Assembly (NCBI GenBank): GCA_963678675.1
Contig: CAVMBM010000001.1
Span: 1 to 64,000, forward strand
Source: Xiphydria camelus
Taxonomy: Eukaryota; Arthropoda; Insecta; Hymenoptera; Xiphydriidae
DNA length: 64,000 nt
Reading direction: 5' to 3'
The notes below the pieces were generated by a model that saw nothing but the letters and a program-made list of their open reading frames with translations, did no database searches and had not been told where the DNA came from. Positions 920 to 64,000 of the stretch are shown here, one piece after another. Each line of letters starts with the position of its first letter. Position 1 is the first letter of the stretch. A program made the position numbers and the translations under genes.

Positions 920-3138
920 GTGACTGAAAGGATTAAGCTAGTGCCAACGGGAGCTGCCGAGGCCAACGAGGAACCTCGCGTACCAAGGCAAAGCCTTGGC
1001 CCCAGGTGGTCTAAGCTGCATTTCGATGCCGACAAATTCAAGGCTGCCCTCTTGGTCGGTTTTTGGGCCGGTCTCCCATTTCAAGATACGACGCGGGCAC
1101 CGGTAGACGAATGGGCCAGAAAGATAATGTCATTAACCACAGAGGTATACGACTATGCGGCCTCTCGGGTCAAGGACACTCCGAGAAAGAGGCAAGTCTT
1201 CTGGTGGTCGCAGCAACTGGCGGTAATCAGAAGAATGTGCGTCTCGGCACGTTGCGCGCTGAAAAGGGCAAACCGGCGTCCACGGAGAGAACCCAACATG
1301 ATCGAGGCCTGCCGGCGCACCCTCCAGGAGAGCCGCAGAGCTCTGAGTAGTGGAATTCGGTGAGCCAGAGCGGTTGCCTGGACCCAACTCATCAAGGATG
1401 TGGAAGCCGACCCCTAGGGGAAGGGCAAAAAAAGTGGCCCTGGGACGGCTGAGATGCAGCACCCCCTCCACCACGGAGACACTACCTTTGGAGGAGGTCC
1501 ATAGAGTTCTGGACAATCTCTTCCCTAGGGTACCTTACAACGTGGCGGTGCGTCCGGTACGCAATAAGGTCCCTCCGGATGTAGGGGAAGAGGAGCCTTC
1601 TGTGACGTCAAGAGAGGCCATGAAGCCCTTAGGAAGAAGAGAGGGTGGGCTACTGCACCTGGTCCCAACGGCATCAGGGCCAACTGGTGGACCGTCACAG
1701 ATGAAACTCTGGACGAGCTCGCCTCTCTCTATGAGTGCTGTCTGCGTAGTGGTCGCTTTCCGAACCCTTGGAAAGTTGCCAACCTTGTGCTGATCCCCAG
1801 GGTTTTTGGAATAATGAGGAGAAGAAGTTCCGCCCAATTTGTCTTCTTGATGATCTGGGCAAAGGGCTGGAGCATCTCATTACAACCAAGATGCTTGAGG
1901 CCCTAGCCGACATGCCGGATAGTGGTCTCTCCGACCGCCAATATGGCTTCAGGGCGCAGCGCTCTACGATAAACGCGATGTTATACGTCAAGAGCTTTAC
2001 GGAAGCGACCCTCGGGGATGGTGATGTGGTGATTGCCGTTGCAATAGATGTGGCAAACGCCTTCAATATCTTACCGTGGGGTGGTATTATCGCGCAAATG
2101 CTGAACAAAGTCCTACCAAGGTACCTGGTAAATACGGTCAGAGATTACCTCCGGGAAAGATACGTACGCTTCCTGAGCGAGGATGACGCGGTCTACATGA
2201 GGGCGGTCAGGGCCGGAGTCCCGCAGGGATGGTCTTGGGGCCGCATCTGTGAAACCTCGCGTACGACTACGTATTGGAAGTTGACATCATGCCGAGTTGT
2301 TGTGTCGTCGCGTATACTGATGACACACTTGTGCTCGCTCGGGGTCGCACCCCCGACGAACAACAACCTTGGCATCCGTTCAGGTGGGGGCTGTCGTCTA
2401 TAGAATAAGAGAGCTTGGCCTCAAAATTTCGGCGGAAAAAATCACCGCCATGTTGTTTGATAGCTATGCTCATATGGAGGGAGGCCGAGTCCTTGTCGGT
2501 GGTGAACTTGCTGAGGTACACCACTCCATGAAATACCTCGGGGTGGTTTTTGATCGCACCCTGTCCTTTCGGCCCCACTTTGCGGCAGCTAAGGACAAGG
2601 CCGAAAAGGTGGTTAAAGCGCACTGGGGTTTACTTCCCAACCTTCGTGGCCCTAGCGAAGTGAAGCGACGTCTTTATGCAAATATCATAAACTTGGTCAT
2701 TCTTTATGGCGCCCCAGTGTGGAGCAATAGGCTCAGCACATATGTTAGTTACAGAAGACCGTTGCTAGCAGTTCAGCGTAGAATAGCCTTGCGTGTAATC
2801 TGTGCTTATCGCACACTGTCACTGGAGGCCGCCTTACTGATGGCCAGGATTACGCCAATCCATCTATTGGCCGAATGTCATAGGTGGACGTTCGAGAGGA
2901 CTAAAGACCTCCGTGAACGAGGCGAGACGAAAACGAATAATTTTAGGGCTGTTCGACGGGCTGCCAAAGCCGTCACAAGGATACAGTGGAGGATTCTCCT
3001 GCAAGACGACAGGCTTCCAGGCGAGAGAGTGAGAAATGCCATTCTGCCGGTCTTTGACCGGTGGATGGATAGGAGGCATGGTCATGTTAGCTTCCAACTC
3101 ACCCAGTTACTAGGTGGACATGGGTGCTTCGGAGAATA
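920..3138 (+). pseudogene. R1-type reverse transcriptase, frameshifted (left copy)
   Basis: Degenerate pol ORF. 920-1340 is the linker between endonuclease and RT (FWWSQQLAVIRR). From 1768 the RT blocks follow in order: RPICLLDDLGKGLEHL, QYGFRAQRSTINAM, AVAIDVANAFNILPW (motif A aspartate) and GVPQGW (motif B). The frame then breaks near 2230. The catalytic box near 2320 reads YTDD rather than the usual YADD. 2369-3138 is an open 257-codon stretch of thumb and C-terminal domain (KYLGVVFDRTLSF, LYGAPVWSN). The domain order and the later CHHC segment point to the R1 clade. It cannot be translated in one frame, so it is a pseudogene. Confidence 0.85.
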
Positions 3139-3373
3139 CTGCCCAATAATGGAGAAAGGCAGTAACTAGTAAAACAAATCGAAGTGCGTTTTTTGATACC
3201 ATTGAATATCTTGAATTATTTTGTACCCAAATTTTGTACCCTTTTTTAGTGTTAAAGCTAGGTTTTATTAGTAATCTGTCTTGGAAACCCTTCGGCTAAA
3301 GGCATCGAAATTAAAGTTGATTTTCCACAAATTTGTCGGTTAGCAGTTACTGCCTTTCTCCATAGTTGGGCAG
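3139..3373. mobile_element. 235-bp MITE inserted in the R1 element (left)
   Basis: Terminal inverted repeats start CTGCCCAATAATGGAGAAAG and end in its near-complement (CTTTCTCCATAGTTGGGCAG), with target duplication AATA at 3135-3138 and 3374-3377. It interrupts the R1 C-terminus between codons for GEY and the downstream RIGKEVS. It is also present in the right arm (62644-62878), so it predates the duplication. Confidence 0.85.
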
Positions 3374-3652
3374 AATACCTCTATCGCATTGGGAAAGAGG
3401 TATCTCCCCGCTGCCATCATTGTGAGGCAGACTTCGACTCCACGGAGTACACGCTTAGGGAGTGCATAGCGTGGGAGCCTGAAAGGGAAGCCTTATGCAG
3501 AATAGTCGATAATGATCTTGGATGAGACAGCATACTACCTCGTATGCTTGACGAAAGGGAGGCGTGGGCTGCTGCCGTCCATTTCGCCAAGACTGTCCTC
3601 ACCAGGAAGAAAGTGGTTGCGAGGGAAGAGAGGCGGTTGGTCGTGGTCGATA
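3374..3652 (+). pseudogene. R1 C-terminal zinc-knuckle segment
   Basis: Continuation of the R1 pol after the MITE. It encodes CHHCEADFDSTEYTLREC, the CCHC-like motif that closes R1-clade pol proteins, then WEPEREAL, with an in-frame stop soon after. The mirror copy is at about 62365-62643 on the minus strand. Confidence 0.75.
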
Positions 3653-3653
3653 G

Positions 3654-3669
3654 CCCCCCCCCCCCCCCC
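3654..3669 (+). repeat. Poly-C tract (16 bp)
   Basis: Uninterrupted run of 16 C. The mirror tract (62344-62363) is 20 G, which accounts for the 4-bp change in mirror sum from 66017 to 66013. Homopolymers of this length are also where sequencing error is likely. Confidence 0.9.
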
Positions 3670-4113
3670 GTATAACCAGGACGAAGAGTATACTTTATAC
3701 AATGATAGCCCTTTTCAGGACCGTGATAGTGATCTCCCCCCCTTAGGGCCGCCACGCACACGCATGCTAGTTGGTCGTTTTGCTTGTACAGTTTTAAGTC
3801 GTAATGCAAGACGGAGTGTGCGTGGTATTAAGTCGTCCGTCTTATTAGTTGCGTACCGTCAATTGCTTGGCATGAACGAAATCAACTGAGGTTTGATTTT
3901 TCGTGCGTGTTCCGTCTTCCTTGCGACGAAAACGGTGAGTCTGGGAGTGCGGTAGATTTGCATTAAGTCTTTTAGTTAGCCCAAAATGTCTGATTTACGA
4001 TTATTGTCGCGTGAATTTTCTTTTAATACGTGGTGTAGTGTTTAAGTTGGTAGCGCCTGAATGAGTGAGAAGACTAGAGAGAGAAGCGAGAGAGAGTGAG
4101 AGTGCGCGCGAAT

Positions 4114-4539
4114 CTAGGGAGTAGAAAGAAGGAGACATGGCGTTAGGAGAACGACCGAGTTCACAGGAAACTGGCACGTGCCCGACCGGTGTGAGATGTA
4201 AATGAATAAAGGAAGACCAGTCACTGTGTTGAAAGAGTTGTTTCCTCCACGAGCCCTCGATACAACACGTAGAGAGAGTGTTATAATTTTAAGTAATTCA
4301 TTGTAGGTTTCTTGATCCATGCGTAAATAATTAAACCAGTCTTGAGGTTCTAGCTTAAGTTCTTTTAACAAATTAATATGTGTGAACTCTCTCAATAGCA
4401 ACCATTTCTTTGACCATTTTTTTATCTGCTTTCTCTTCTTTTTATATTTAACATTAATAGAACAAATAAATAATGTTTCATTATGTATGTTACAAAAGGG
4501 GATTATTATTGCCAACTTATTCCGAATATAACTTTGCAA
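4114..4539 (-). pseudogene. Harbinger transposase N-terminal fragment (left)
   Basis: A 141-residue ORF inside Harbinger element 1. The central part (KKWLLLREFTHINLLKELKL, then FNYLRMDQETYNELL) matches the arrangement at the N-terminus of Harbinger-type nucleases: a basic W-rich start, then LR(M/L)(D/S)xETxxELL before the catalytic domain. The DDE catalytic region is missing, so the ORF could at most make a truncated protein. In the right arm one A fewer in a homopolymer breaks the frame, leaving only 61612-61899 open. That suggests no selection on it. Confidence 0.7.
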
Positions 4540-4928
4540 AAAAACATTTCAATTTTTTCAAAACTAATCTAAAATATTGAAAACGTCATGTCCTCTGGCT
4601 GTCACCATTGAAGCCAAATAAAATGTTATAATGATAAAAAGCCATATTTATGAAAATCAAGCCTAACTTTTATTTTCTTTATTTAGTATTGTCATTGTGT
4701 TTTGCATTTTTCATCAATAAAATTAAGAAAACGTCATTCGTCTGGATGCATTTTTTAAAGAAATCTCTTTAAAATGCAACAAAATTAAAAATTCAATGTC
4801 TTCCAAACGAAAGACTTATCTGTGGGCTGCTCTGTGTTCCGTCTTGCAGTACAAGTAAAACGACAAACTAGCATGTGTATCTGTGGCGGCCCCTAGTGTT
4901 CCGTCTTGCATTACAACTTAAAACTGTA

Positions 4929-5139
4929 CCACCCGTGCTCACGGATTCTGTCGCTGGTGACTTTTTTTAAATGTTATTTTTAGACGTACTAACCAATGAA
5001 CAATAAATTCTCATGCCCTCATTAGCTACGGTGGTGTCTACTCTCATTAATGAAAGCATGAGGATTATTAATCATTGGTTAGTACGTTTAAAAATGACAT
5101 TTAAAAAATGTCACCAGCGACAGAATCCGTGAACACGGG
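4929..5139. mobile_element. MITE family B copy, 211 bp
   Basis: Hairpin element with inverted ends containing CACGGATTCTGTCGCTGGTG and its complement, flanked by TA on both sides (4927-4928, 5140-5141). Other copies: 14133-14342, 29495-29707, 55869-56078 and 60884-61085. It inserted inside the terminal region of Harbinger element 1. Confidence 0.85.
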
Positions 5140-5187
5140 TATACAAGCAAAACGACCAGCTAGCATGCGTGTCTCTGGCGGCCCTTA

Positions 5188-6279
5188 GGGCCGGTTTATC
5201 AGTGCGCAGTTAAATCTGCCAGCTTAATAGCTGGCAGTTAACTCTAACTGTCAGTCAAAGGTTCTGTTACAGTAACAAGTGTTTATCCTGCCTTCAATTA
5301 GCTAGCAGTTAAACTGCCGCCAGCTACATAAAATGAAAGTTTGGCAACACAGTTCCTTCCGTAAAACGCACCAACGGAAATGAATGGGTGCGTTCAGCAG
5401 ATATCGCTCCTTGGGAGCACTCGACGGTCATTGGTTGAAATTGAACATTTAGCCAATGACCATAGAAAATCACTCAAGTCGTTGGTGAGCCGGCAATACT
5501 TGACATATCGAGTCATAACCTCAATTACAGCGTCTGCGAGCTGTCAGTTCGACTCGCGTGTGATTTTTTGGTTAAGAAGCCGTCAGCGTTTAACGTTAAC
5601 GCGTGTTATTAATTAAAACATTCGGGGCAAGATCTTTGATTGATGCTGAAGATTTACTGATATTCAATAAGTCACCAACAGTTATTAAAAAATTTCCCGT
5701 TGCATAATACCTTAGAGTTAGAAGCAACTGATTCATAGGGGTGATCGAATGGTTCCTAATAAAAGCATAAACATGTTACATAATTTCAAAAATTGTTATT
5801 TTGATAGCTATCTACTTACCAGTCAGTGGGAGATTCAATCAAATGTTCAATTTGCTCAAGAACTAGTAGCACTGTATTTTTCGATAGTCGAAATCTCCTA
5901 TGAAATTCGACATCATCCAGTTCTTCTAAAAGGTTATTTCTTTCCTTAATTATATAAGGTCTTCTCTCATATTCAAAAAAATCCAACAAGTCCTCGTCCT
6001 CATCACTAATGTCGATTTCTTCAAAATGCATTTTAATTCTTATTATTTCAAACACAACAACCTAACCTTAGTTTCTGTTGCTGTTTCTTTGCTACCATTT
6101 AGGTATATCCGCCAGTTATTTCCTTAACAGGCAAAGAAAGCGCCTGTTAAAATAGCCGAGATATTAGCTTACAGTTTATCTAACCCAGGACATTGATAAA
6201 CAGTTTGACGTTATTTTGACCTACAGCTATAACTTGACCAACAGTTAAAGTAGATAACGGTGCACTGATAAACCGGCCC
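5188..6279. mobile_element. PIF/Harbinger-type element 2 (left only)
   Basis: 1092 bp with ends GGGCCGGTTTATCAGTGC and its near-perfect complement GCACTGATAAACCGGCCC, TSD TTA (5185-5187 and 6280-6282). It sits directly in the TTA duplication of element 1, so two Harbinger elements abut with one shared TTA. Encodes a transposase N-terminal fragment. The right arm has no counterpart. Confidence 0.85.
5816..6055 (-). pseudogene. Harbinger transposase N-terminal fragment
   Basis: 79-residue ORF. The run RRPYIIKERNNLLEELDDVE, then FHRRFRLSKNTVLLVLEQIE, is the hallmark N-terminus of insect Harbinger nucleases (an acidic start, a basic block, then FxxRFRLSKxTV). The DDE domain is missing, so this is a non-autonomous remnant. 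The same organisation appears in the element at 43104-44006. Confidence 0.8.
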
Positions 6280-6282
6280 TTA

Positions 6283-6555
6283 GAGGCACAAGGCAGTGGG
6301 GCAATGTCCCAGTAGTGGTGGCCCTTGTAGGTTTTCTCCCCCCCCCCCATATTTTGTTCTTCCACCCCTCCCTTCCCTTCCTCCTCTCCCCCCCTTTTAT
6401 TCCACCCCTTCCTTTCTTTTCCTTCTTTCCCTGGCCCTTTGCTGTCAGATGACAGACTTCTTTTCTCTGGAGTGTCTTTGAAGTTTGGCTGCCATATCCC
6501 TCTGTATTGCCGCCTGTTTTTACGTGGAGTCCAGATATTTAACCTTCTTCAATGG
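6283..6555. other. Pyrimidine-rich intergenic DNA
   Basis: 6337-6440 is strongly C/T-rich with several C homopolymers. No gene is visible. It may be a decayed 3' part of the R1 element or simple sequence. Confidence 0.6.
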
Positions 6556-6866
6556 TTAACATCTGGCTTAGTGGTCGAGCACCATACCTCTTGTGTGGTG
6601 TCTCGCTCCTATGTAGTCGCGGGCGTAACTAGGAGAGCGACGAGCTCAAACCCTGGGGTCTCTTGCAGTGAAACCTTTATTGGTGGATACTAGGACCCCC
6701 ATTTAAAGGGTTGATGAGGCTGGAGGTAGGTTTAGTGGGTAGGGAGCCCCCGCATTGCACTATGGAATCATACCATAGCGAGGATCACTCGAGCCCCACA
6801 CTACCTCGGGTCTAGCCCACCCGAGGTGTGCGTAAAAAGCATTCCCCCTCCTTAAAAAAAAAAAAG
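6556..6866 (+). mobile_element. tRNA-derived SINE
   Basis: Contains an A-box-like TGGCTTAGTGGTCGAGC near 6571 and a B-box-like GAGCTCAAACCCTGGG near 6642, spaced as in a pol III promoter. A tRNA-unrelated body follows and ends in an A-run (6855-6866). It lies in the part of the left arm absent from the right. Confidence 0.65.
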
Positions 6867-7339
6867 TATAAATAATAATTTTGACGGAAATGCAGAAAAC
6901 CGTCCTTACTATGTAAGAACTACGACGTAATTGGAAGTTACTAATTTTGTTGTAATTGCAGTTCTCAAGTTTTTGTGTGTATAATGAAATAGATAGCATC
7001 AGTCAAATCTTCGAAAACACATACAAAATAAAGTTTGGACTAGAAGTTTCAAAACTGTTTATTAAGACTTAATTTGTCGAAAATAATGCAACAGATTTTT
7101 TTAATGCGATTTCTGAAGAATTATTATTTTCTCACTTACGTTATTGTTCTTCTGAAGAAGCGATGTAGATAAAAAAATTCTTGGTTTAAAAATAATTAAT
7201 TTAAGAAGTAATTAATTCTCTCGGTATATCACGGAGTTAAATTTTACTGAAAATTTCAACATTATGGACAGTTCTTATAGAATGAAGTAAACAAAGTGAA
7301 GGAGAAGAGTTAATAGTTGAAGTAGAAAAGAGTTATTTT

Positions 7340-7391
7340 CTAAATTGGAAAGTTGCGGGTTCAAGTCCCGCCGGGTTCTCTTTTTTTTTTC
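7340..7391 (+). pseudogene. Truncated tRNA-like 3' half
   Basis: GCGGGTTCAAGTCCCGC forms a perfect T-arm with a consensus B box, followed by CGGGTTCTC and a T-run. No matching 5' acceptor or D-arm is visible upstream, so it is a truncated tRNA or SINE piece rather than a gene. Confidence 0.4.
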
Positions 7392-8659
7392 TCAATATTG
7401 TTGTAATATTAAAAAACTAATGTTAACCCTTCTGGGGTCGCGTGATGAGGGCGGCCCCGCACTTTTTTCTTTAAATCGTTATAATTGGGTTGTATCACAT
7501 ATTTTTGTACATCATAAATGGATTGAGCACGTAAAAAAGTTGGGACGTGTTTTTTTATTTTTTTTTCCTGACGCGAAATTAAGCCGTGAAAGATTAATAA
7601 AGTTTGCGCTAAACTCCGCTCACTTGAAACAGCCGGTTGAGCCGCACGCCACACCGTGACGTCACTAGCCATATAACGGTTCGCCTGCGCGCCTTCTAGT
7701 ACAGTAGACGGGCCGAGAAAATCAACTTTGTTGTCCACTTTTCTTTACAAGTGTCCGAGTTTTTGTTTCTGATGTGATTTCAATATTTCATTACCTTTAA
7801 AACAAAACAAAAATCATCGAAAAATATCAATTTTTAGTGAAGTTAGAGGAGCGCGCGGGCGCTACGGCGCGTATTTATGTTCAAAATGCGATATCTCGAG
7901 AACCACACACACATTCATCGTAACAAAATGAGATAAAAACCAATCGTTTCGGCTTGAAATTCTCTACATTTTTTCTGGAGTATATCTCGACAACCTCAAT
8001 AGTTTTCGAGATATTTAACCCTAGATAGCTAACCTTCCTATAATATAAAGGAAGGTTAGCTACCCAGGTAGCAAGCTGACGTAAACTTGACGTCACTTTT
8101 AGGGCATATTTCGTCGGCGACGTCATTCTACCAAAAAATGACGTTTTAATGTCGTCATTCAAGAAACGTCTTTAAGACGCCTTAAATATGACGTTAAAAA
8201 GACGTTACTTTTACGTCGTAATAAAATTTTAAAATAACTACTTATTATACAATATACATTGAATATTTTTATATTTTTTTATAATGTATAATATAAAAAT
8301 ATTTGTATAGTGTGGTCTACTTTAATTCTCGATTCTTATATCTCTGTACCATTTTACCAGTACGTTTTTTTTTTTAATAAATAAAAGTAAGATTTTTTAT
8401 ATTGCGGTCGTTTCTATAAACATTCATATAATTATTTATTTATTAATATCAATTTGCGTCTATGCAAGAATATTTATCAAAAGATGCAATCATAAATTTA
8501 GAAAAATGTTGAGAAAAGAATAATACAATTATAAAATCTTATTTATTTAAGCTCTTTCTTATTGACTGGAAAAGCAACATACATTTATTCATCAAACTTC
8601 ATATGAACACCAATAGTAATACTTAACACCACAGGAGCGTGCAGCAGATGAGGACTCGA

Positions 8660-8745
8660 AAACACCGACCGATCGACGAAGTTAAGCAGCAAAAAGTGCG
8701 GACAGTAGTTGGATGGGTGACCGCTCACGATGAAAAGATTACGTC
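8660..8745 (+). pseudogene. 5S rRNA-like segment inside transposon
   Basis: The words GATCGACGAAGTTAAGCAGC and GTAGTTGGATGGGTGACCGC, in that order and spacing, match the conserved internal control region of 5S rRNA (A box, intermediate element, C box). The flanks diverge from 5S and there is no 3' terminator T-run at the right place. It is therefore a 5S-derived relic or promoter module carried by the transposon, not a functional 5S gene. Confidence 0.65.
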
Positions 8746-8845
8746 AGCCCTAACCTTTCAGAGCCGTCATTTTTTACACAATCACGTTATATTTTTCGTT
8801 ATCTGCCGTCAGAGCTGACCTTCAAAAACCGTCATTTTGACGTTA

Positions 8846-10851
8846 CCCTTGTCGAAAACTACTACAGCGGACTGAACACTACAGTGGTCAGTAGTGGTTT
8901 CTACAATAGTGGTCAGTAGTGGTATACAGTGGTGAATAGTGGTCAGTAGTGGTATACAGTGGCGAATAGTGGCACGCAGTGGTACGTAGTGGTAAGAAGT
9001 GGTAAGTAGTGCACATGTAATGGTTATACTATTTTTTTTATTGAATCATATAAAAAGGGTACAAAATTTAAATTATACGATGGATGTATCACTTCGGCTC
9101 CCGAAAACTCTGTAATCACGCGAATTGAAGAAAGGTATAATACCTACCTAGATAAATTTAAATGTTACTTATAGAAGACAATGCAATGGTAGATGACTTC
9201 TTCAGTTGATATTATTGGATACCGTTGAGATTCTCGCGATTGTAGACCCGCGTGCTTAAATTTTAAATTTAAACTTGCATTTTCTAGTAAAAGAGCGAAG
9301 GGAGAACAAAATTTTCCCGACGTTTCTATGAGCTTCTATCCTCCTATTAAAGGAACTATAATCTAAAATGTGTCGCGCGAAATTACCTAGCAGGGAAAGA
9401 CTCATTTATAAAAAAAGAAGAGAGATCTATAAATTTTGATTCTCTCCAGAGCTTTGACTCAGATAAAATTATAATCATGATTCAATCTCACGCATGGAGA
9501 AAGCAAGGCTACAATACCCGTTCCTCGGAGCACCGTCCGACGCGAATGCTGCGACACAGAGAAATTGAGCGTCATCGAGTTCTTAATCTAGAACGAATCA
9601 TCGAGCGTCAACGTCGCGGTGGAATTTCTTCTGTCCGGCGATTGCATTGCGATATATCGTTTCCGCGTAAGATCTCTTGAAGGTCGTTGCAAGGGCTATT
9701 TTCGAGTTTGGCTCGCAAAGGTCTCTCACCCGGCGATCTGAAAAACACGTTTAAAAGCCCACTGTGAACAAAATCAATCCTTCGCAGCCACGACATTCTG
9801 ACAATGCGAAACTCCTCTTTGTTCCTGGCGAATTCAAAGTTTACCGCGATAAAATTGTTTAATCATACCTTGCGACGAGTTTCAATTTGACTTTGTCGAT
9901 GTCTTTCAGTATATCGCCCATTAATTTCTGGGAGATCAGTGGCGGTTTATGCCGATCGACGAACTTGTAGTCTTGTAAACTAGCTCTCCTTGCGATGTGA
10001 GGAGTCGTCGGAGGTGGCAGAGGTGGCGGCATATAATAATAACTAATTAAAAGTTTTAACATTACGATCAAAACGATTACTTACAGTAATTAGCATTGAT
10101 CCCAAAGCAAGAAATCTTAAAGTTGGCAATAATTTCGTTGCTGGCTGAATTGCTGCATTTCTTTGCGACCTCGGTGCAATGCGATGTCGTATTTGTCCCA
10201 ATAATCTCTGGCCGATTTTGTTTTTCCAAACGAAATCGAGTGAAGAATTCTACATCATTGTAAGTATTCTTCGAAAAAGTCAACTCTGGAATAGTTTTGT
10301 ATTAGATATTGATTATAAATTAATAGGTATAGGTATCTTTTATTTACTTACCGGGCACGTATTTTCTTCGGATTTCTCATTCTTGGTAATACGTCAATAT
10401 CTTCATCAAATGATGATTCAAAAACTGGTTTATCAAATAACTCCATTTCAAAATTAATAACAATTTACCACAACGGTCAGGTTATGACTATGTCACGAAG
10501 AATATAGACACAAACAAAAAGTTAGGTTATACAGAGGATAGATAGCTTATCCCACGATGAAACTGCCGGATAAGTTATGTCTGCATTTATTCCAAAGTTT
10601 ATGCTATTCCAGACTTATACCATACTTGTAAAACGCTTGCGTACTGGTTATATTCTCAGTATAGCGCTATACCGCGTTTATACCGTGTTGGTAAAACCGG
10701 CCCTAAATATCACTTTTGGATCACTGCTCACCACCATTGAACCACTACTGACCATCATTGAACCACTGCTCACCACTATTGTGCCACTACTCAGGTTTTC
10801 AGTAGTGGTTGAAAATATTCCGTAGTGTTCTGTAGTGGTTTTCGACACGGG
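8846..10851. mobile_element. 2-kb element with AGTGGT subterminal repeats
   Basis: Ends CCCTTGTCGAAAACTACTAC and, inverted, GTAGTGGTTTTCGACACGGG, flanked by TA (8844-8845, 10852-10853). Immediately inside the left end lie about ten copies of AGTGG(T/C)-type units (8880-9010). The complement ACCACT/GAACCACTAC units sit inside the right end (10730-10830). The interior holds Harbinger-derived pieces. 9060-9850 has no recognised gene. Confidence 0.75.
10077..10283 (-). pseudogene. Harbinger transposase N-terminal fragment
   Basis: 68-residue ORF with NDVEFFTRFRLEKQ, which matches the FxxRFRLxK block of Harbinger nucleases, and later NEIIANFKISCFGINANY, which resembles the following helical segment. 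The catalytic domain is missing. A Harbinger-like end (GGGCCGGTTTTACCAACACG, inverted, 10684-10706, followed by TAA) lies nearby. No matching left end was found, so the element is truncated. Confidence 0.6.
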
Positions 10852-11204
10852 TAGTGTGCTACCTGGAAAATCGCTAAAATTAAACGTCATATTTCACGTC
10901 ATAAAGAACGTTAGAAAGACGTCATTAAATGACGTCAGTGGGATGTGACTTTCGAACGTACTTTTAACGTCATTTATACGTTTTTTACTGACGTCGTCTA
11001 TGACCAGATCTGACCAAAAAATGACGTTAATTTCACGTTAGTTTGTTACCTGGGTATCTAGGGTTAAATATCTCGAAAACTATTGAGAAGTTATCGAGAC
11101 ACACTGCGGACAAAATTTAGAGACTTTCAAGACGAAACGATTGGTTTTTATCTCATTTTGTTACGATTAATGTGTGTGTGGTTCTCGAGATATCGCATGT
11201 TGTA

Positions 11205-11761
11205 CCGTGAATGCACCGGTATCCGTCCATGTAAGATGTTTTTTTAGCGGGAAATGTAATATTTAATTACCATGGCCAAATATAGAAAGAAGAGTAAATA
11301 TAATACAACGGTGGACTCTTTTTCATCGATATAAAAATTAAAAAGTTTGAAAAGGGATTCATAATAATTAAATAATAAAATTTTAAAGTGAATGGTCAAA
11401 AGGATCAGTATCCGACCGTCTGTTTTCGCTCTGTGCTGGTACCGAATGACGTAATTTTACAATAATAAAATGTTTTTTTAGCACTTCTAATAATTTTAAT
11501 TTATATTACAATATATTATTCATCGATTTAAACATATTTTAATACGTTTATACATTTATTACTTACATTTTTTCGTATCCATCTGAATACTAATTTCCAA
11601 TCCTAACCGACTCTTCTAACGAAATACATTCAAAGCATGATGTTAGCGCCACGCATCGAAACAAATTAATTAATTTAAACATTTAAAAATGTTAAATATT
11701 TCCATAATCGACCTTCGGTAGACGGATACTCATACACGGTCGGATACCGGTGCACTCACGG
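11205..11761. mobile_element. MITE family C, 557 bp
   Basis: Ends CCGTGAATGCACCGGTATCC and, inverted, GGATACCGGTGCACTCACGG, flanked by TA (11203-11204, 11762-11763). AT-rich interior without coding potential. The right arm has its outer part from 60113, but the copy is cut at about 60464 by a rearrangement. Confidence 0.85.
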
Positions 11762-12059
11762 TATATAAATACGCGCCGTAGCAGCGCCCGCACGCTCTTG
11801 TAATCAAATGCCTCTAACTTCACTAAAAATTGATATTTTTCGATGATTTTTGTTTCGTTTTAAAGGTAATGAAATATTGAAATCATCAGAAACAAAAACT
11901 CGGACACTTTTGTAAAGAAAAGTGGACAACAAAGTTGATTTTCTCGGCCCGTCTACTGTACTAGAAGGCGCGCAGGCGAACCGTTATATGGCTAGTGACG
12001 TCACAATGACCTGTGGCGGCGTTTCACTGGGGAGGCGTGGCCATGCTACTTTTAAAGTA

Positions 12060-12361
12060 CCATATGTCCGCGATCAAAGAGCCCATAGCAAAATTGCGAG
12101 TTTTGCATGAGCACCTCTGTGGGTCTCCTCGTCCAATAGAATCACCGGAGAAGCGTGAATGCGCATGCGTAGTCATCCGCGAGTGCAGTTCGACTTCAAT
12201 TTCGATTCTCGCATCTCGAAATCGAAATCGAACTGCACTCGCGGATGACTACGCATGCGCATTCACGCTTCTCCGGTGATTCTATTGGACGAGGAGACCC
12301 ACAGAGGTGCTCATACAAAACTCGCAATTTTGCTATGGGCTCTTTGATCGCGGACATATGG
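12060..12361. mobile_element. MITE family A copy 1
   Basis: Near-perfect hairpin of about 300 bp with ends CCATATGTCCGCGATCAAAG and complement, TA on both sides. Carries the centre variant based on CAGTTCGATTTCGA. In the right arm its outer half survives as part of a hybrid MITE (56081-56379 plus 59812-59814). Confidence 0.95.
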
Positions 12362-12963: not shown

Positions 12964-12965
12964 TA

Positions 12966-13812: not shown

Positions 13813-13814
13813 TA

Positions 13815-14130: not shown

Positions 14131-14132
14131 TA

Positions 14133-15532: not shown

Positions 15533-15534
15533 TA

Positions 15535-15850: not shown

Positions 15851-15912
15851 TACAGTGCGTTCGGTGTTCCAACAGAAATCCCTGACTAGTCAAAGTCCGC
15901 ACATGCGCACTA

Positions 15913-43100: not shown

Positions 43101-43103
43101 TAA

Positions 43104-53168: not shown

Positions 53169-54148
53169 ATGCATGCACCACAAGTCCACAGGAAATCGTG
53201 TTTTGTACCAAAATGCACGAATACTTCTGTGCGAACTCCAGACAAAGTGTTTGTGAATGTGCTGAGAGACTGTGACATGAGACGAAAATGGTTTAAAGCG
53301 GCCAGAAGAGACATGCCTAAGTCAAAATCGATATTCCATTGCTGCGAAGATCATTTCAATGTAAGTTTCCTTATACTATAGGTTCATAGGTTATGTTCAG
53401 TGAATCTTTTTGGTTGACAGCTTGAAGAGGACATGGAAAATTATTTGCGGTACAAGACTATGGCAGGAAATAATTTAATGAAACAAGGAGTTATGCCTCA
53501 CATCTTCGACTGCCAAAAAGACAGCAAGAGAGCTGCCAGTAATCCACCGAGACCACTTTACGAGAAACGCAAGAGGAAATAGTTGATCGAGGAAGTCATG
53601 TCTGCGACCGAGGTTCAACAACAGGCATTATCTCTTCAAGATAAACCAGACAATAGTACTGGTGCCAGTGGACTGGATCATCTTGAAGAAATAGTGCCTG
53701 TTGTTGAACCTCGGTGGCAGACATGACTTCCTCGATCAACCATTCCCTCTTGCGTTTCTCGTGAAGTGGTCTCGGTGGCTTACTGGCAGCTCTCTTGCTG
53801 TCTTTTTGGCAGTCAAAGATGGGAGGCATAACTCCTTGTTTCATTAAAATATTTCCTGCCATAGTCTTGTACCGCAAATAATTTTCCATGTCCTCTTCAA
53901 GCTGTCAACCAAAAGCATTCACTGAACATAACCTATGAACCTATAGTATAAGAAAACTTACATTGAAATGATCTTCGCAGCAATGGAATATCGATTTTGA
54001 ATTAGGCATGTCTCTTCTGGCCGCTTTAAACCATTTTCGTCTCATGTCACAGTCTCTCGGCACATTCACAAACACTTTGTCTGGAGTTTGCACAGAAGTA
54101 TTCTTGCATTTTGGCACAAAACACGATTTACTGTGTTGCTTCTGGGGT
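53169..54148. mobile_element. THAP-domain fragment in inverted duplication (right)
   Basis: Mirror of 16384-17363. The plus-strand THAP exon (53169-53360) is open from ATG to the GTAAG donor. One residue differs from the left (NVLRDC for NVPRDC). The zinc-binding CFVPKC and CCEDHF motifs are kept. Confidence 0.75.
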
Positions 54149-54360
54149 GCTTACATTTTCAGCCACTTTCACTACACACTACACCAAAATGACGTAGAAA
54201 CAAGAAACTTTTAGAATCTCAGAAAAACGCTTCGAAAACATAAGGTTTGTTCCTGCAGAGAATCCGTGACTAATCCCTGACAGTTGGTGATTTGTACGTA
54301 GTGCGCATGGGCGGACTTTGACTAGTCAGGGATTTCTGTTGGAACACCGAACGCACTGTA

Positions 54361-54676
54361 CCGTATGTCCGCGATCATTTGAACCATAGGAAAATTGCGA
54401 GTTTTGCATGAGCACCCCTTTGGGTCTCCTCGTCCAATAGAATCACCGGAGAAGCGTGAAAGCGCATGCGTAGTCATCCGCGAGTGTGGCGTCGTCAGCA
54501 AGTTTAGATCGATTATTTCGATAACCGATCTGAACTTGCTGACGACGCCACACTCGCGGATGACTACGCATGCGCATTCACGCTTCTCCGGTGATTCTAT
54601 TGGACGAGGAGACCCAAAGGGGTGCTCATGCAAAACTCGCAATTTTCCTATGGTTCAAATGATCGCGGACATACGG
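54361..54676. mobile_element. MITE family A (right, mirror of copy 5)
   Basis: 316-bp hairpin with CCGTATGTCCGCGATCATTT ends, shares a TA with the next copy. Confidence 0.95.
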
Positions 54677-54678
54677 TA

Positions 54679-54973
54679 CCATATGTCCGCGATCAAAGAG
54701 CCCATAGCAAAATTGCGAGTTTTTTGCATGAGCACCTCTGTGGGTCTCCTCGTCCAATAGAATCACCGGAGAAGCGTGAATACGCATGCGTAGTCATCCG
54801 CGAGTGCAGTTCTTCGATTTCGAGATGCGAGAATCGAAATCGAACTGCACTCGCGGATGACTACGCATGCGCATTCACGCTTCTCCGGTGATTCTATTGG
54901 ACGAGGAGACCCACAGAGGTGCTCATGCAAAACTCGCAATTTTGCTATGGGCTCTTTGATCGCGGACATATGG
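54679..54973. mobile_element. MITE family A (right, mirror of copy 4)
   Basis: 295-bp hairpin with CCATATGTCCGCGATCAAAG ends, TA on both sides. Confidence 0.95.
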
Positions 54974-55150
54974 TACTCTAGTGGTGACGGCAGTAATTAA
55001 TTTTAGAAGAGAGCAAACCTAACCTTTTTAATTTTCGACTAAGGTTATTGTTATTTTGTTTTATACACTACTAGTAGTGTAACAAAAATATGGATGAAAA
55101 CTCAGGTACAAACAATAGAAAGGTAATACGGTTTGGCGAACAAGGGTTGC

Positions 55151-55691
55151 AAACGTACAGTCAGTTAAGTAAGAGCGTGTATGGCATTATTCATAAAGAA
55201 ATTATTCAACAATATTTTTTTCCACGTACATACGTTTGATATGTTCCAAGGCAATGCGCAATTATGTTAATAATGAGTCCAATCACCACCATCGACAATC
55301 ACTTGGCATCCCCGAGGCATAGTATCCACCCATTTTTCGACGTATTCGCGGGGAAGTGTCTTCCAAACGCGTCGAATTTCTCAGGATAGCTACTTCACAG
55401 TGAACACGTTTTCATAAACAAGCAGAAGCTTGGACGAAAACGTGTCTTCACTGTGAAGCAGCTATCCCGATAAATTCGACACATTTGGAAGGCACTTCCC
55501 CATAAATACGCTGAAAATTTGATGGATAGTATGCCTCGGAGATGCCAAGCAATAATCGATGGTGGTAATTGAACTCATTATTAACCAAATTGTGCATTGC
55601 CTTCGACCATATCAAACGTATGTATATGTCGAAAGAAACATTGTTTAATAATGTCTTCATGAATAACGCCGCACACACTCTTACTTAACAG
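55151..55691. mobile_element. Tc1/mariner remnant in inverted repeat (right)
   Basis: Mirror of 14520-15060 with the same SMPRR-containing C-terminal fragment and a few substitutions. Confidence 0.75.
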
Positions 55692-55868
55692 ACTATATTT
55701 ACAATCTCACGTCCTTCACAGAACGCTAATTCCGGACGGATCGGAGTAAGCCATCCCCGCAGTGGTCAGCTTAATAAATACCGCTATACATGGAATATGT
55801 ATTGTAACGGGGAGAAATAACGGATTCCATAGATAACCGTGTAAATCTGATACCTGGCTTACCATGTA

Positions 55869-56078
55869 CACCCGGGTTCACGGATTTTGAACATAGTGAC
55901 TTTTCAAAATGTCATATTTCAATATACTAACCAATGAATAATTAATATCATGCTTTCATTAGCCAGGGCAAAAGCCGCATTAGCTAATGAAAGTTTGACA
56001 TTTAATTGCTAATTGGCTGTTACGTTTTAAAATTACATTTTCAAAAGTCATTATGTTCAGAATCCGTGAACCCGGGTG
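55869..56078. mobile_element. MITE family B (right)
   Basis: Mirror of 14133-14342. The outer end next to the hybrid MITE reads CCGTGAACCCGGGTG, where the left copy has CCGTGGCCCTGGGTG in the same orientation. Confidence 0.85.
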
Positions 56079-57423
56079 TACCGTATGTCCGCGATCATTT
56101 GAACCATAGGAAAATTGCGAGTTTTGCATGAGCACCCCTTTGGGTCTCCTCGTCCAATAGAATCACCGGAGAAGCGTGAATGCGCATGCGTAGTCATCCG
56201 CGAGTGCAGTTCGATTTCGATTTCGAGATGCGAGAATCGAAATTGAAGTCGAACTGCACTCGCGGATGACTACGCATGCGCATTCACGCTTCTCCGGTGA
56301 TTCTATTGGACGAGGAGACCCACAGAGGTGCTCATGCAAAACTCGCAATTTTGCTATGGGCTCTTTGTTCGCGGACATACCGGGTGTTAGGCTATGTTGT
56401 GGCCATAGGACGATATGGTACGTAGCGATTTGTAGACTCTAGGTTGTACGCTATTGGTCGGAGACGCAAGCACGCCGAACGATTGGCTCTGCTATCGTCG
56501 ACAGACGGCAATCGTCGCAAGAGAAGTTCCCTAAGGCGTAGGCACCTAGCAGACGAGAAAGTATGGCGGTTGACAAATATGTACGTTTGTTTACAAAGTG
56601 GAATTTTTCGGAGCAATTGTACTTTTTGGAAATAAAACGTGATTTTCAAAGTTAATAAAATATTTCTATTCGCGAAACGATTTCCTTCGCATTTATTTCG
56701 ATCCTCGAACGCGCTTATTAGTAAAAAGTAAAAATACAGTTAAATTGAAGTAATGAAGGAGGGGTGATAAATCTTAGGTTAAATGTAAAATAATTAACGA
56801 GTTGTAGAGACAAGTGAACCAACGTGTAAGATTACAGTGACCAGGCAGTTCTCAAGATTTTTAAGTAGGGTAAGTGTAACGATAAATCAAGAGGAATAAC
56901 AAAAATGAATTGTTTTGAAGTCACATTCAATTTCTTTATACTTTACAAAGGCAATAATATTACAAAAATTATTCGTAGAATTAGAGAAAGTGATGAGTTC
57001 TTCATGGAAATGACTTCGACTATGGACGAAGCAAGACGACGCTAAACCAATGAATGACGGAAGAGTTCGACGATGTGCATCAGCCTCCACGGAGAAATGT
57101 GCCGAAGACGAAGGACGATTGGTGTGCCGCTCATGAGTTTGAAATAAATGAAACGTAAGGTATTATTCATACAGAAAAAGAATGTAGAGAGAGTGCAGGT
57201 ATTTAATTTACCAGTACGACACACATTACCATCCGCTAATCAACGATATGGAATTTTTCAGCAAGTATCGATAACCAGGACCATGGTGAAGGACTTTATG
57301 TTTTGCAAGTGTGCCTGCGATCAGCAACCTGATCGAGTGCTTTGTAAGAGCCTGGGTTGGTGCCTCCCGCAGTAATGTCAGATTGCTCCAAATTGAAATC
57401 CTCCCTCGTTTCACTCTGCCATT

Positions 57424-58040
57424 CAACAACGAGCATCAACTCCCCCGGAGGACACGAAAAGCTGTAACATCAGGAAGACCGTGAAAGGTTAATAAAATTA
57501 TGGAAAACGATACCACGAATGTAAGCAAATCCTTTTCATAACATTTTGTGGAAAACTCACCGTTGCTTCATCTTTACAGGAGACGTTCTAAATGATTTCC
57601 TTGCTCAGCCGAGCAATAATCCAAACGATCGTGGAATGCTGAGGTCGCAACAACGAGCATCAACTCCCCGGGAGGACACGGAAAGCTGTAACATCAGGAA
57701 GACCGTGAAAGGTTAATAAAATTATGGAAAACGATACCACGAATGTAAGCAAATCCTTTTCATAACATTTTGTGGAAAACTCACGGTTGCTTCATCTTTA
57801 CAGGAGATGTTCTAAATGATTTCCTTGCTCAGCCGAGCAATAATCCAAACGATCGTGGAATGCTGAGGTCGCAACAACGAGCAGCAACTCCCCGGAGGAC
57901 ACGAAAAGCTGTAACACCAGGAAGTCCGTGAAAGGTTAATAAAATTATGGAAAGTGATACCACGGATGTAAGCAAATCCTTTTCATAACATTTTGTGGAA
58001 AACTCACGGTTGCTTCATCTTTACAGGAGATGTTCTAAAT
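57424..58040 (+). repeat. 224-bp tandem repeat, about 2.7 units
   Basis: Units begin CAACAACGAGCATCAACTCC and each contains GTAAGCAAATCC and TTTACAGGAG, which look like a splice donor and acceptor about 60-70 bp apart. The transposase exon-intron segment may have been tandemly duplicated. Confidence 0.8.
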
Positions 58041-58074
58041 GAGAACAACTCTCGAACAAGTGTAGCTAGGGTAA

Positions 58075-58460
58075 TTGAGATATTTTTTGGGCAAGGGAAA
58101 ATCCCAGGATACCGTGGGATGTAAGGATCCAGTACCCCATGAAAGTAAACGTCTGGGTTGGAATAACCGGTAACCGAATTACAGGGCCGGCTTTCCTTCA
58201 CGAAAATTGGAACGGCCAGATGTATCTCGATATTCTGAGATATTTAGTAATACCGTCGCTTCGAAACATCGAAGAAGAAGTAAGTATTAGTAGAACGCAG
58301 TCACGTTATTACAGTCCCATGGTAAGCTATTGAAAATCGACAATTTAATTACTGTTACTTACAGATCGGAGCCCAGATGTATTTTCAACACTCCCGCGTA
58401 CTCGACGATACGAGTCCGGCGATTCCTGGATGAGGAATTCCCCAACCGTTGGTTAGGAAA
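58075..58460 (+). pseudogene. Tc3/mariner-like transposase remnant
   Basis: The ORF from 58139 encodes MKVNVWVGITGNRITGPAFL then NGQMYLDILRYLVIPSL, the segment before and around the second catalytic aspartate region of Tc1/mariner transposases. 58430-58480 encodes FPNRWLGK and a PRSP-NL-TPID-like stretch in another frame, as seen just before the last catalytic residue. Frameshifts make it inactive. Confidence 0.75.
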
Positions 58461-60112
58461 ATGGGTCCAATACCGTTGCCGCCGCGATCGCCCAACCTAA
58501 CGCCGATAGATGTAACAGTTTTTCGTCTCCTCCGGGGGAGTTGATGCTCGTTGTTGCGACCTCAGCATTCCACGATCATTTGGATTATTGCTCGGCTGAT
58601 CAAGGAAATCATTTAGAACGTCTCCTGTAAAGATGAAGCAACGGTGAGTTTTCCACAAAATGTTATGAAAAGGATTTGCTTACATTCGTGGTATCGTTTT
58701 CCATAATTTTATTAACCTTTCACGGTCTTCCTGATGTTACAGCTTTTCGTGTCCTCCAGGGGAGTTGTTGCTCGTTGTTGAATGGCAGAGTGAAACGAGG
58801 GAGGATTTCAATTTGGAGCAATCTGACATTACTGCGGGATGCACCAACCCAGGCTCTTACAAAGCACTCGATCAGGTTGCCGATCGCAGGCACACTTGCA
58901 AAACATAAAGTCCTTCACCATGGTCCTGGTTATCGATACCTGCTGAAAAATTCCATATCGTTGGTTAGCGGATGTTAATGTGTGTCGTACTGGTAAATAA
59001 ATACCTGCACTACATTCTTTTTCTGTATGAATAATACCTTACGTTTCATTTATTTCACACTCATGAGCGGCACACCAATCGTCCTTCGTCTTCGGCACAT
59101 TTCTCCATGGAGGCTGATGCACATCGTCAAACTCTTCCGTCATCCATTGGTTTAGCGTTGTCTTGCTTCGTCCATAGTCGAAGTCATTTCCATGAAGAAC
59201 TCATCACTTTCTCTAATTCTACGAATAATTTTTGTAATATTATTGCCTTTGTAAAGTATAAAGAAATTGAATGACTTCAAAACAATTCATTTTTGTTATT
59301 CCTCTTGATTTATCGTTACACTTACCCTACTCAAAAATCTTGAGAACTGCCTGGTCACTGTAATCTTCCACGTTGGTTCACTTGTCTCTACAACTCGTTA
59401 ATTATTTTACATTTAACCTAAGATTTATCACCCTTCCTTCATTACTTCGATTTAACTGTATTTTTACTTTTTATTAATAAGCGCGTTCGAGAATCGAAAC
59501 AAATGCGAAGGAAATCGTTTCGCGAATAGAAATATTTTATTAACTTTGAAAATCACGTTTTATTTCCAAAAAGTACAATTGCTCCGAAAAATTCAACTGT
59601 AAACAAACGTATCTTTCAACCGCCATACTTTCTCGTCTGCTAGGTGCCTACGCCTTAGGGAACTTCTCTTGCGACGATTGCCGTCTGTCGACGATAGCAG
59701 AGCCAATCGTTCGGCGTGCTTGCGTCTCCGACCAATAGCGTACAACCTAGAGTCTACAAATCGCTACGTACCATATCGTCCTATGGCCACAACATAGCCT
59801 AACACCCGGTATGGTACTTTAAAAGTAGCATGGCCACGCCTCCCCAGTGAAACGCCGCCACAGGTCATTGTGACGTCACTAGCCATATAACGGTTCGCCT
59901 GCGCGCCTTCTAGTACAGTAGACGGGCCGAGAAAATCAACTTTGTTGTCCACTTTTCTTTACAAAAGTGTCCGAGTTTTTGTTTCTGATGATTTCAATAT
60001 TTCATTACCTTTAAAACGAAACAAAAATCATCGAAAAATATCAATTTTTAGTGAAGTTAGAGGCATTTGATTACAAGAGCGTGCGGGCGCTGCTACGGCG
60101 CGTATTTATATA

Positions 60113-60460
60113 CCGTGAGTGCACCGGTATCCGACCGTGTATGAGTATCCGTCCACCGAAGGTCGATTATGGAAATATTTAACATTTTTAAATGTTTAAA
60201 TTAATTAATTTGTTTCGATGCGTGGCGCTAACATCATGCTTTGAATGTATTTCGTTAGAAGAGTCGGTTAGGATTGGAAATTAGTATTCAGATGGATACG
60301 AAAAAATGTAAGTAATAAATGTATAAACGTATTAAAATATGTTTAAATCGATGAATAATATATTGTAATATAAATTAAAATTATTAGAAGTGCTAAAAAA
60401 ACATTTTATTATTGTAAAATTACGTCATTCGGTACCAGCACAGAGCGAAAACAGACGGTG
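60113..60460. mobile_element. Truncated MITE family C (right)
   Basis: Mirror of 11410-11761. The element runs from CCGTGAGTGCACCGGTATCC to GCGAAAACAGACGG, where homology to the left arm stops. Confidence 0.8.
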
Positions 60461-60865
60461 AGTCTGGGAGTGCGGTAGATTTGCATTAAGTCTTTTAGTT
60501 AGCCCAAAATATCTGATTTACGATTATTGTCGCGTGAATTTTCTTTTAATACGTGGTGTAGTGTTTAAGTTGGTAGCGCCTGAATGAGTGAGAAGACTAG
60601 AGAGAGAAGCGAGAGAGAGTGAGAGTGCGCGCGAATCTAGGGAGTAGAAAGAAGGAGACATGGCGTTAGGAGAACGACCGAGTTCACAGGAAACTGGCAC
60701 GTGCCCGACCGGTGTGAGATGTAAATGAATAAAGGAAGACCAGTCACTGTGTTGAAAGAGTTGTTTCCTCCACGAGCCCTCGATACAACACGTAGAGAGA
60801 GTGTTATAATTTTAAGTAATTCATTGTAGGTTTCTTGATCCATGCGTAAATAATTAAACCAGTTA
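60461..60865 (+). repeat. Direct-orientation copy of 3938-4345 (right-arm rearrangement)
   Basis: About 405 bp of the Harbinger element 1 interior (TGAGTCTGGGAGTGCGGTAG to TAATTAAACCAGT). It is inserted in the opposite sense to the rest of the right arm and duplicates sequence also present in mirror at about 61668-62075. Confidence 0.88.
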
Positions 60866-60883
60866 ATTTAAATAATAATTTAA

Positions 60884-61085
60884 ACGAAATCTGTCGCTGG
60901 TGACTTTTTTTAAACCTTATTTTTAAACGTACTAACCAGTGAACAATTAATTCTCATGCCCTCATTAGCTACGGTGACGTCTACTCTCGTTAATGAAAGC
61001 ACGAGGATTGATTAATCATTGGTTAGTACGTTTAAAAATAACATTTAAAAAAAGTCACCAGCGACAGATTCCGTGAGCCCGGGTG
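60884..61085. mobile_element. MITE family B copy, 5'-truncated (right)
   Basis: Near-identical to 29495-29707 over about 200 bp, missing the outer terminal bases. Right TA at 61086-61087. It is more similar to that distant copy than to the B copy at the corresponding left site (4929-5139). Confidence 0.85.
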
Positions 61086-61087
61086 TA

Positions 61088-62266
61088 CAGTTTTAAGTTG
61101 TAATGCAAGACGGAACACTAGGGGCCGCCACAGATACACATGCTAGTTTGTTGTTTTAGTTGTACTGCAAGACGGAACACAGAGCAGCCCACAGATAAGT
61201 CTTTCGTTTGGAAGACATTGAATTTTTAATTTTGTTGCATTTTAAAGAGATTTCTTTAAAAAATGCATCCAGACGAATGACGTTTTCTTAATTTTATTGA
61301 TGAAAAATGCAAAACACAATGACAATACTAAATAAAGAAAATAAAAGTTAGGCTTGATTTTCATAAATATGGCTTTTTATCATTATAACATTTTATTTGG
61401 CTTCAATGGTGACAGCCAGAGGACATGACGTTTTCAATATTTTAGATTAGTTTTGAAAAAATTGAAATGTTTTTTTGCAAAGTTATATTCGGAATAAGTT
61501 GGCAATAATAATCCCCTTTTGTAACATACATAATGAAACATTATTTATTTGTTCTATTAATGTTAAATATAAAAAGAAGAGAAAGCAGATAAAAAATGGT
61601 CAAAGAAATGGTTGCTATTGAGAGAGTTCACACATATTAATTTGTTAAAAGAACTTAAGCTAGAACCTCAAGACTGGTTTAATTATTTACGCATGGATCA
61701 AGAAACCTACAATGAATTACTTAAAATTATAACACTCTCTCTACGTGTTGTATCGAGGGCTCGTGGAGGAAACAACTCTTTCAACACAGTGACTGGTCTT
61801 CCTTTATTCATTTACATCTCACACCGGTCGGGCACGTGCCAGTTTCCTGTGAACTCGGTCGTTCTCCTAACGCCATGTCTCCTTCTTTCTACTCCCTAGA
61901 TTCGCGCGCACTCTCACTCTCTCTCGCTTCTCTCTCTAGTCTTCTCACTCATTCAGGCGCTACCAACTTAAACACTACACCACGTATTAAAAGAAAATTC
62001 ACGCGACAATAATCGTAAATCAGACATTTTGGGCTAACTAAAAGACTTAATGCAAATCTACCGCACTCCCAGACTCACCGTTTTCGTCGCAAGGAAGACG
62101 GAACACGCACGAAAAATCAAACCTCAGTTGATTTCGTTCATGCCAAGCAATTGACGGTACGCAACTAATAAGACGGACGACTTAATACCACGCACACTCC
62201 GTCTTGCATTACGACTTAAAACTGTACAAGCAAAACGACCAACTAGCATGCGTGTGCGTGGCGGCC
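61088..62266. mobile_element. Harbinger element 1 (right, partial)
   Basis: Mirror of 3747-4926. The transposase ORF (61612-61899, plus) is shortened by a one-base homopolymer difference near 61595. The outer end GGCGGCCC is followed by TAA at 62266-62269. Confidence 0.8.
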
Positions 62267-64000
62267 CTAAGGGGGGGAGATCACTATCACGGTCCTGAAA
62301 AGGGCTATCATTGTATAAAGTATACTCTTCGTCCTGGTTATACGGGGGGGGGGGGGGGGGGGGCTATCGACCACGACCAACCGCCTCTCTTCCCTCGCAA
62401 CCACTTTCTTCCTGGTGAGGACAGTCTTGGCGAAATGGACGGCAGCAGCCCACGCCTCCCTTTCGTCAAGCATACGAGGTAGTATGCTGTCTCATCCAAG
62501 ATCATTATCGACTATTCTGCATAAGGCTTCCCTTTCAGGCTCCCACGCTATGCACTCCCTAAGCGTGTACTCCGTGGAGTCGAAGTCTGCCTCACAATGA
62601 TGGCAGCGGGGAGATACCTCTTTCCCAATGCGATAGAGGTATTCTACCCAACTATGGAGAAAGGCAGTAACTGCTAACCGACAAATTTGTGGAAAATCAA
62701 CTTTAATTTCGATGCCTTTAGCCGAAGGGTTTCCAAGACAGATTACTAATAAAACCTAGCTTTAACACTAAAAAAGGGTACAAAATTTGGGTACAAAATA
62801 ATTCAAGATATTCAATGGTATCAAAAAACGCACTTCGATTTGTTTTACTAGTTACTGCCTTTCTCCATTATTGGGCAGTATTCCCCGAAGCACCCATGTC
62901 CACCTAGTAACTGGGTGAGTTGGAAGCTAACATGACCATGCCTCCTATCCATCCACCGGTCAAAGACCGGCAGAATGGCATTTCTCACTCTCTCGCCTGG
63001 AAGCCTGTCGTCTTGCAGGAGAATCCTCCACTGTATCCTTGTGAGGGCTTTGGCAGCCCGTCGAACAGCCCTAAAATTATTCGTTTTCGTCTCGCCTCGT
63101 TCACGGAGGTCTTTAGTCCTCTCGAACGTCCACCTATGACATTCGGCCAATAGATGGATTGGCGTAATCCTGGCCATCAGTAAGGCGGCCTCCAGTGACA
63201 GTGTGCGATAAGCACAGATTACACGCAAGGCTATTCTACGCTGAACTGCTAGCAACGGTCTTCTGTAACTAACATATGTGCTGAGCCTATTGCTCCACAC
63301 TGGGGCGCCATAAAGAATGACCAAGTTTATGATATTTGCATAAAGACGTCGCTTCACTTCGCTAGGGCCACGAAGGTTGGGAAGTAAACCCCAGTGCGCT
63401 TTAACCACCTTTTCGGCCTTGTCCTTAGCTGCCGCAAAGTGGGGCCGAAAGGACAGGGTGCGATCAAAAACAACCCCGAGGTATTTCATGGAGTGGTGTA
63501 CCTCAGCAAGTTCACCACCGACAAGGACTCGGCCTCCCTCCATATGAGCATAGCTATCAAACAACATGGCGGTGATTTTTTCCGCCGAAATTTTGAGGCC
63601 AAGCTCTCTTATTCTATAGACGACAGCCCCCACCTGAACGGATGCCAAGGTTGTTGTTCGTCGGGGGTGCGACCCCGAGCGAGCACAAGTGTGTCATCAG
63701 TATACGCGACGACACAACAACTCGGCATGATGTCAACTTCCAATACGTAGTCGTACGCGAGGTTTCACAGATGCGGCCCCAAGACCATCCCTGCGGGACT
63801 CCGGCCCTGACCGCCCTCATGTAGACCGCGTCATCCTCGCTCAGGAAGCGTACGTATCTTTCCCGGAGGTAATCTCTGACCGTATTTACCAGGTACCTTG
63901 GTAGGCCTTTGTTCAGCATTTGCGCGATAATACCACCCCACGGTAAGATATTGAAGGCGTTTGCCACATCTATTGCAACGGCAATCACCACATCACCATC
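62267..64000 (-). pseudogene. R1-type retrotransposon (right, partial)
   Basis: Mirror of 2017-3746. It contains the C-terminal domain ORF (62848-63648), the RT piece with GVPQGW (63614-63991), the YTDD box and the 235-bp MITE (62644-62878). Few substitutions relative to the left (for example AKALTR for AKAVTR). Cut by the window end. Confidence 0.85.

Follow-up and report, generated by a model that had tools for sequence, protein, structure and literature searches.

A palindromic contig of Xiphydria camelus carrying two intact RpLP0 genes: a probable inverted duplication with gene conversion between its arms

Introduction

How did a contig in the genome assembly of Xiphydria camelus come to consist of a gene-bearing sequence and its own inverted copy? 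The window analysed here, 64,000 nucleotides in length, is positions 1-64000 of a contig of 66,011 bp (C2), which stands separately in an assembly whose 38 contigs total 357 Mb and include several of 32-41 Mb; judged from its small size, C2 is probably an unplaced contig. C1 denotes another contig of the same assembly, 41 Mb long. A preliminary description of the window proposed either a fold-back-type inverted duplication or a mis-join of two haplotypes. We consider it probable (about 0.65) that C2 represents a genuine chromosomal inverted duplication, the arms of which were later homogenised by gene conversion.

Results

Architecture of the palindrome

Comparison of the window with its own minus strand gave the following inverted mirror blocks, and the mirror sum is constant inside each of them.

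2017-5130 with 60884-64000, inverted
11415-12064 with 59810-60459, inverted
13817-15913 with 54298-56380, inverted
16232-20081 with 50451-54300, inverted
20077-23591 with 46781-50294, inverted
24701-29494 with 33705-38498, inverted
29705-30073 with 33341-33709, inverted
30352-31081 with 32624-33354, inverted

From the same comparison the parts of the palindrome are as follows.

22..31079, plus strand, left arm (mirrored blocks and private sequence)
~31080-32623, no strand, single-copy spacer of 1.54 kb with CWC15 exon 3 and a MITE-like repeat inside
31479-31861, no strand, palindromic MITE-like repeat of 383 bp in the spacer
32624..64000 and on to the contig end at 66011, minus strand, right arm

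Chance is excluded because three blocks of 3.5-4.8 kb, arranged in exact mirror order, are 99.84-99.94% identical. An inverted repeat with two arms and a short spacer, as first described, is present in the sequence. The preliminary description gave arms of about 29 and 31 kb; within the left arm, which is 31.1 kb long, mirrored sequence amounts to just 21.3 kb. The remainder is private to the arm and consists in part of clean insertions and in part of two complex, partly resolved intervals (5131-11414 against 60460-60883 and 12065-13816 against 56381-59809). Similarly, constancy of the mirror sums within blocks holds and most of the steps between them are clean insertions, but the two complex intervals do not follow this simple scheme. 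The palindrome does continue beyond the window, as had been supposed, by just 2,011 bp. Base 22 mirrors base 66011, and therefore the palindrome covers C2 from end to end. A local inverted duplication of 409 bp (99.8% identity; 60455-60863 and 61673-62081) is found in the right arm beside one complex interval.

RpLP0 in both arms

21206..22718, minus strand, RpLP0 of the left arm, four exons (22718-22665, 22563-22153, 21776-21432, 21340-21206), intact, 314 aa
47654..49166, plus strand, RpLP0 of the right arm, four exons, intact, protein same as in the left arm

Both genes have an open frame of 314 codons and encode identical proteins, and a single silent change separates their coding sequences; the splice sites were read on the left-arm copy and on a third copy located at C1:11558396-11560475. 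This third RpLP0 is 91-95% identical to the C2 genes across ~2.1 kb, beyond which the flanks compared have only short repeats in common with C2. Between the C2 and C1 genes dN is 0.013 and dS 0.113-0.118, and hence the genes look constrained. Further gene copies were sought by DNA search, from which strongly diverged copies could escape. In the protein search two fish records score top, yet at lower identity; next among the named relatives come Polistes and Diachasmimorpha, both wasps, and the other matches listed are mixed, mainly insects. With an intact RpLP0 in both arms and hymenopteran relatives, the earlier view of an insect palindrome holding a ribosomal protein gene gains support.

Pfam comparison of nine reading frames matched only RpLP0 (two frames, one just below the cut-off), CWC15 and one reverse transcriptase. 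The latter frame has 31 matches at 33-48% identity, the named ones all belonging to ants (Lasius niger and Ooceraea biroi). The tRNA and Rfam scans of the window gave no match.

CWC15 and the novel junction

30456..31059, plus strand, CWC15 exons 1-2 only, left arm, cut by the junction in intron 2
31075..31084, no strand, novel junction of CWC15 intron 2 with inverted sequence ~1.5 kb downstream
32035..33250, minus strand, complete CWC15 of three exons, 220 aa, right arm and spacer

The spacer supplies exon 3 and thereby completes the right-arm CWC15, the best named relatives of which include many hymenopterans (Neodiprion, Orussus, ants). At C1:11.058-11.109 Mb there are three related CWC15 copies, one partial (i) and two complete (ii and iii). 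Copies i and ii lie in direct orientation as a repeat pair (C1:11058123-11062180), identical across the 454 bases compared, and copies ii and iii are oppositely oriented. The C2 junction was compared with C1:11109250-11109450. Copy iii matches the spacer up to ~31082 and then runs on into other sequence; in this unrearranged copy the spacer is contiguous with right-arm sequence. Intron 2 is uninterrupted in the right-arm copy and in C1 copies ii and iii. As copy iii passes the junction point and three copies keep intron 2 intact, the C2 junction is a single novel join; read in this way, one inverted join of sequences that normally lie ~1.5 kb apart appears to have made the palindrome. The fold-back-type origin proposed earlier gains support from this one novel inverted junction, both parental sequences of which occur elsewhere in the genome. 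A turn-round at the palindromic repeat of the spacer was rejected: the spacer is not mirrored about the repeat centre and copy iii keeps the order.

Aligned by eye, the junction appears to have 0 bp of microhomology, although C1 and C2 differ by a small indel beside it, and comparison with C1 revealed no repeat or homology at 31079/31080 that could mislead an assembler. This bears on the possibility that the arms represent both haplotypes at a single RpLP0-CWC15 locus, joined head to head by the assembler in a short separate contig. The preliminary description had already offered a haplotype mis-join, and we regard it as disfavoured, since an assembler would have had no homology to follow at the junction. 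Nevertheless, C2 is a palindrome over its full length, and both of its ends halt at the same mirrored point. In addition, of the six coding differences that separate the CWC15 copies of the two arms, five are synonymous (P ~0.003 if neutral), as are all three of those private to the cut left copy (P ~0.011), both values coming from a simple model that ignores transition bias. Such a synonymous bias is odd for a truncated left copy. The pattern agrees with both copies having once been functional, and so with either a pair of haplotypes or the joining of different chromosomes. Given this synonymy and the shared end point of the contig, a mis-join of haplotypes is unlikely but retains appreciable weight.

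The right-arm and C1 copies of CWC15 differ from one another by 1.05-1.77%, apart from the identical pair i and ii; comparisons with the left copy were dropped, being inflated by unrelated flank. Other contigs of the assembly match CWC15 at 98-99% identity for the most part and transposon pieces at up to 98%, which contradicts contamination by another species.

Insertions private to one arm

Six insertions are private to one arm or the other; in every case target bases are duplicated and the opposite arm has the corresponding empty site.

15914..16231, no strand, hairpin MITE, left arm only, target duplication TAC, right arm empty
23765..24700, no strand, solo LTR, left arm only, target duplication CCAG, empty site in the right arm
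29495..29704, no strand, MITE, left arm only, duplicated target bases, right arm empty
30074..30351, no strand, insertion, left arm only, target bases ACCTAT duplicated, empty site in the right arm
38672..46780, no strand, LTR element, right arm only, target duplication ATGG, empty site in the left arm
50295..50450, no strand, MITE, right arm only, target duplication TTATA, left arm empty

The right-only LTR element carries a nested insertion at ~45346-46453, and its site lies 177 bp from that of the left solo LTR on the ancestral sequence. The last stretch of the insertion at 30074-30351 (30300 to ~30357) has 100% matches at six other places in the genome. Block 24701-29494 matches the rest of the genome in pieces only, as transposons would.

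Private insertions with target duplications and empty partners contradict the idea that the arms are copies of one molecule. Palindromic reads can arise during whole-genome amplification (PMC6218980), so a fold-back chimera of that kind, or an unsplit hairpin read, deserves consideration. Such an artefact predicts identical arms near the junction, whereas 10/1099 differences are found within 1.4 kb of it and two left-arm private insertions (29495-29704 and 30074-30351) lie close by. This explanation is contradicted by the differing inner arms and the private insertions, and we find it hardly credible. For two haplotypes, on the other hand, transposon insertions present in one of them are ordinary.

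Several other repeats were seen. Near-perfect hairpin MITE families of ~306 and 322 bp have several members in C2 and occur also at C1:11593568-11598592. Self-comparison placed them in the window at these positions.

12057-12363, no strand, hairpin MITE
12644-12965, no strand, hairpin MITE
13811-14134, no strand, hairpin MITE
15235-16234, no strand, hairpin MITE

They recur in some, not all, of the C1 stretches compared. This hints weakly that C2 may belong near hairpin-MITE-bearing stretches of C1; such repeats may be common genome-wide. A fold-back element at 56376-59813, in which the inverted arms measure 1.3 kb and the tandem repeats 224 bp, sits inside a hairpin MITE in the right arm only. 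At one mirrored place (~4926-5145 and 60870-61094) both arms have a MITE that aligns better in flipped orientation (188/240 against 164/257 columns). Both arms also contain a tandem repeat of 24/48 bp (27023-27316 and 35883-36159) that contains an open frame unmatched in Pfam.

Uneven divergence between the arms

Divergence was counted as substitutions only, with indels left uncounted. In the core the arms differ at 21/15892 positions (0.13%); block 13817-15913, which is rich in repeats (32/2065), is not counted in it, nor is the MITE at ~4926-5130. Compared to the core, divergence is higher at the inner edge (29705-31081; 10/1099, 0.9%, Fisher P 2e-5) and at the outer edge (22-2016; 27/1991, 1.4%, Fisher P 3e-14). 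It is higher also between the two LTRs of the right-only element, which differ at 9-10/949 positions (~1.0%, Fisher P 3e-5 to 5e-6), the count depending on one site that borders the nested insertion. The blocks flanking this element contain 7/8485 differences between the arms. Variant counts of 20/15708 and 6/8308, obtained without the 177-bp block 23588-23764 and with the length of the outermost piece rounded, give the same picture. Thus divergence in the core lies below that of the LTR pair and of either edge, although the divergence of the LTRs may have other causes.

An insertion missing from the other arm should not predate its flanks, except where later homogenisation has acted on them. 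Gene conversion from arm to arm after the duplication, patchwise between insertions, is therefore the simplest reading of the substitution counts. Exchange between the LTRs and other genomic copies could mimic part of this signal, and so could polishing that flattens arm differences. For the haplotype mis-join these counts are unfavourable: LTRs 1.0% apart in a one-arm insertion with 7/8485 differences in its flanks are unexpected for alleles differing by ~0.1%, an argument that fails if recombination hugged the insertion on both sides.

The edges could also be older than the join, if a real palindrome arose by joining two copies (paralogues or homologous chromosomes) that had diverged beforehand, with little or no later conversion. 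Edge divergence of 0.9-1.4% resembles the 1.05-1.77% seen among the right-arm and C1 copies of CWC15, and the synonymous pattern in CWC15 would fit as well. Alone, however, such a join leaves unaccounted for both the 0.13% core and the fact that a one-arm element has an LTR pair more diverged than its flanks, and we consider it quite improbable.

Discussion

Our results are best explained by a genuine inverted duplication followed by conversion. According to this explanation, a break would have occurred in or near the RpLP0 and CWC15 locus and would have been repaired by fold-back or by joining to the sister or homologous chromosome. CWC15 intron 2 would thereby have been linked in reverse to sequence ~1.5 kb downstream, leaving that stretch as single-copy spacer. 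Each arm would then have acquired transposon insertions of its own, and gene conversion from one arm to the other may meanwhile have kept the shared core near-identical, apparently halting at the large insertions. The outcome would be two intact RpLP0 genes, presumably linked on one chromosome and with a possible effect on dosage, beside the third, diverged RpLP0 on C1. Several observations count against a genuine duplication: C2 is short and separate, both its ends stop at one mirrored point, differences in CWC15 are mostly synonymous, and the junction is without clear inverted microhomology.

C2 is similar to human fold-back inverted duplications with a disomic spacer in having inverted arms, one novel junction and, between the arms, a short unduplicated spacer that runs on directly into one of them (PMC3907307). 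Among the 21 sequenced human junctions, spacers are 766-70,466 bp long, a range that includes the 1.54-kb spacer of C2, and 13 of the 21 have short microhomology, three have repeats and five have insertions (PMC3907307). Unlike them, C2 shows no clear inverted microhomology and measures tens of kb, compared to up to megabases in human (PMC3907307). The oppositely oriented CWC15 copies at C1:11.058-11.109 Mb contain the same gene, inverted, at mostly 98-99% identity to C2 (96.5% between the C1 region and C2 31082-31716); in contrast to C2, their arms face each other and have different breakpoints. In the 60 kb compared around them there is no RpLP0 match.

Gene-converting palindromes are described mainly from sex chromosomes, where conversion may replace ordinary recombination, at least in the parts of the sources considered (PMC3723533, PMC7023750, PMC8981503). 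C2 shares with those of the mammalian X and Y and of the bird and willow W gene-bearing inverted arms, a core more than 99% alike and a spacer (PMC3723533, PMC7023750, PMC8981503). For the human Y palindrome P6 the inferred conversion tracts are given a mean minimum of 2,068 bp (PMC3723533). In willow W palindromes, retrotransposon dating gives an age above that of the most alike stretches and the authors invoke gene conversion (PMC7023750). C2 resembles them in that its retrotransposon, too, suggests a greater age for the arms than the most alike stretches inside them would. In contrast to sex-chromosome palindromes, the arms of C2 have many private insertions and housekeeping genes. Hymenoptera are not known to have such sex chromosomes. 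A hymenopteran palindrome of this kind did not appear among the papers listed in the literature searches, which is no claim that none is in print.

If C2 is instead an assembly error, a false extra RpLP0 gene has entered a large-contig reference. We tentatively propose, at somewhat below an even chance, that patchwise conversion between transposon insertions keeps two essential ribosomal stalk genes identical on a non-sex-chromosome palindrome of a haplodiploid insect, beside a third RpLP0 that is diverged but constrained. The arm-private transposons would then mark the ends of conversion tracts, and a palindrome with housekeeping genes in a haplodiploid insect would mean that palindrome upkeep needs no sex-limited chromosome.
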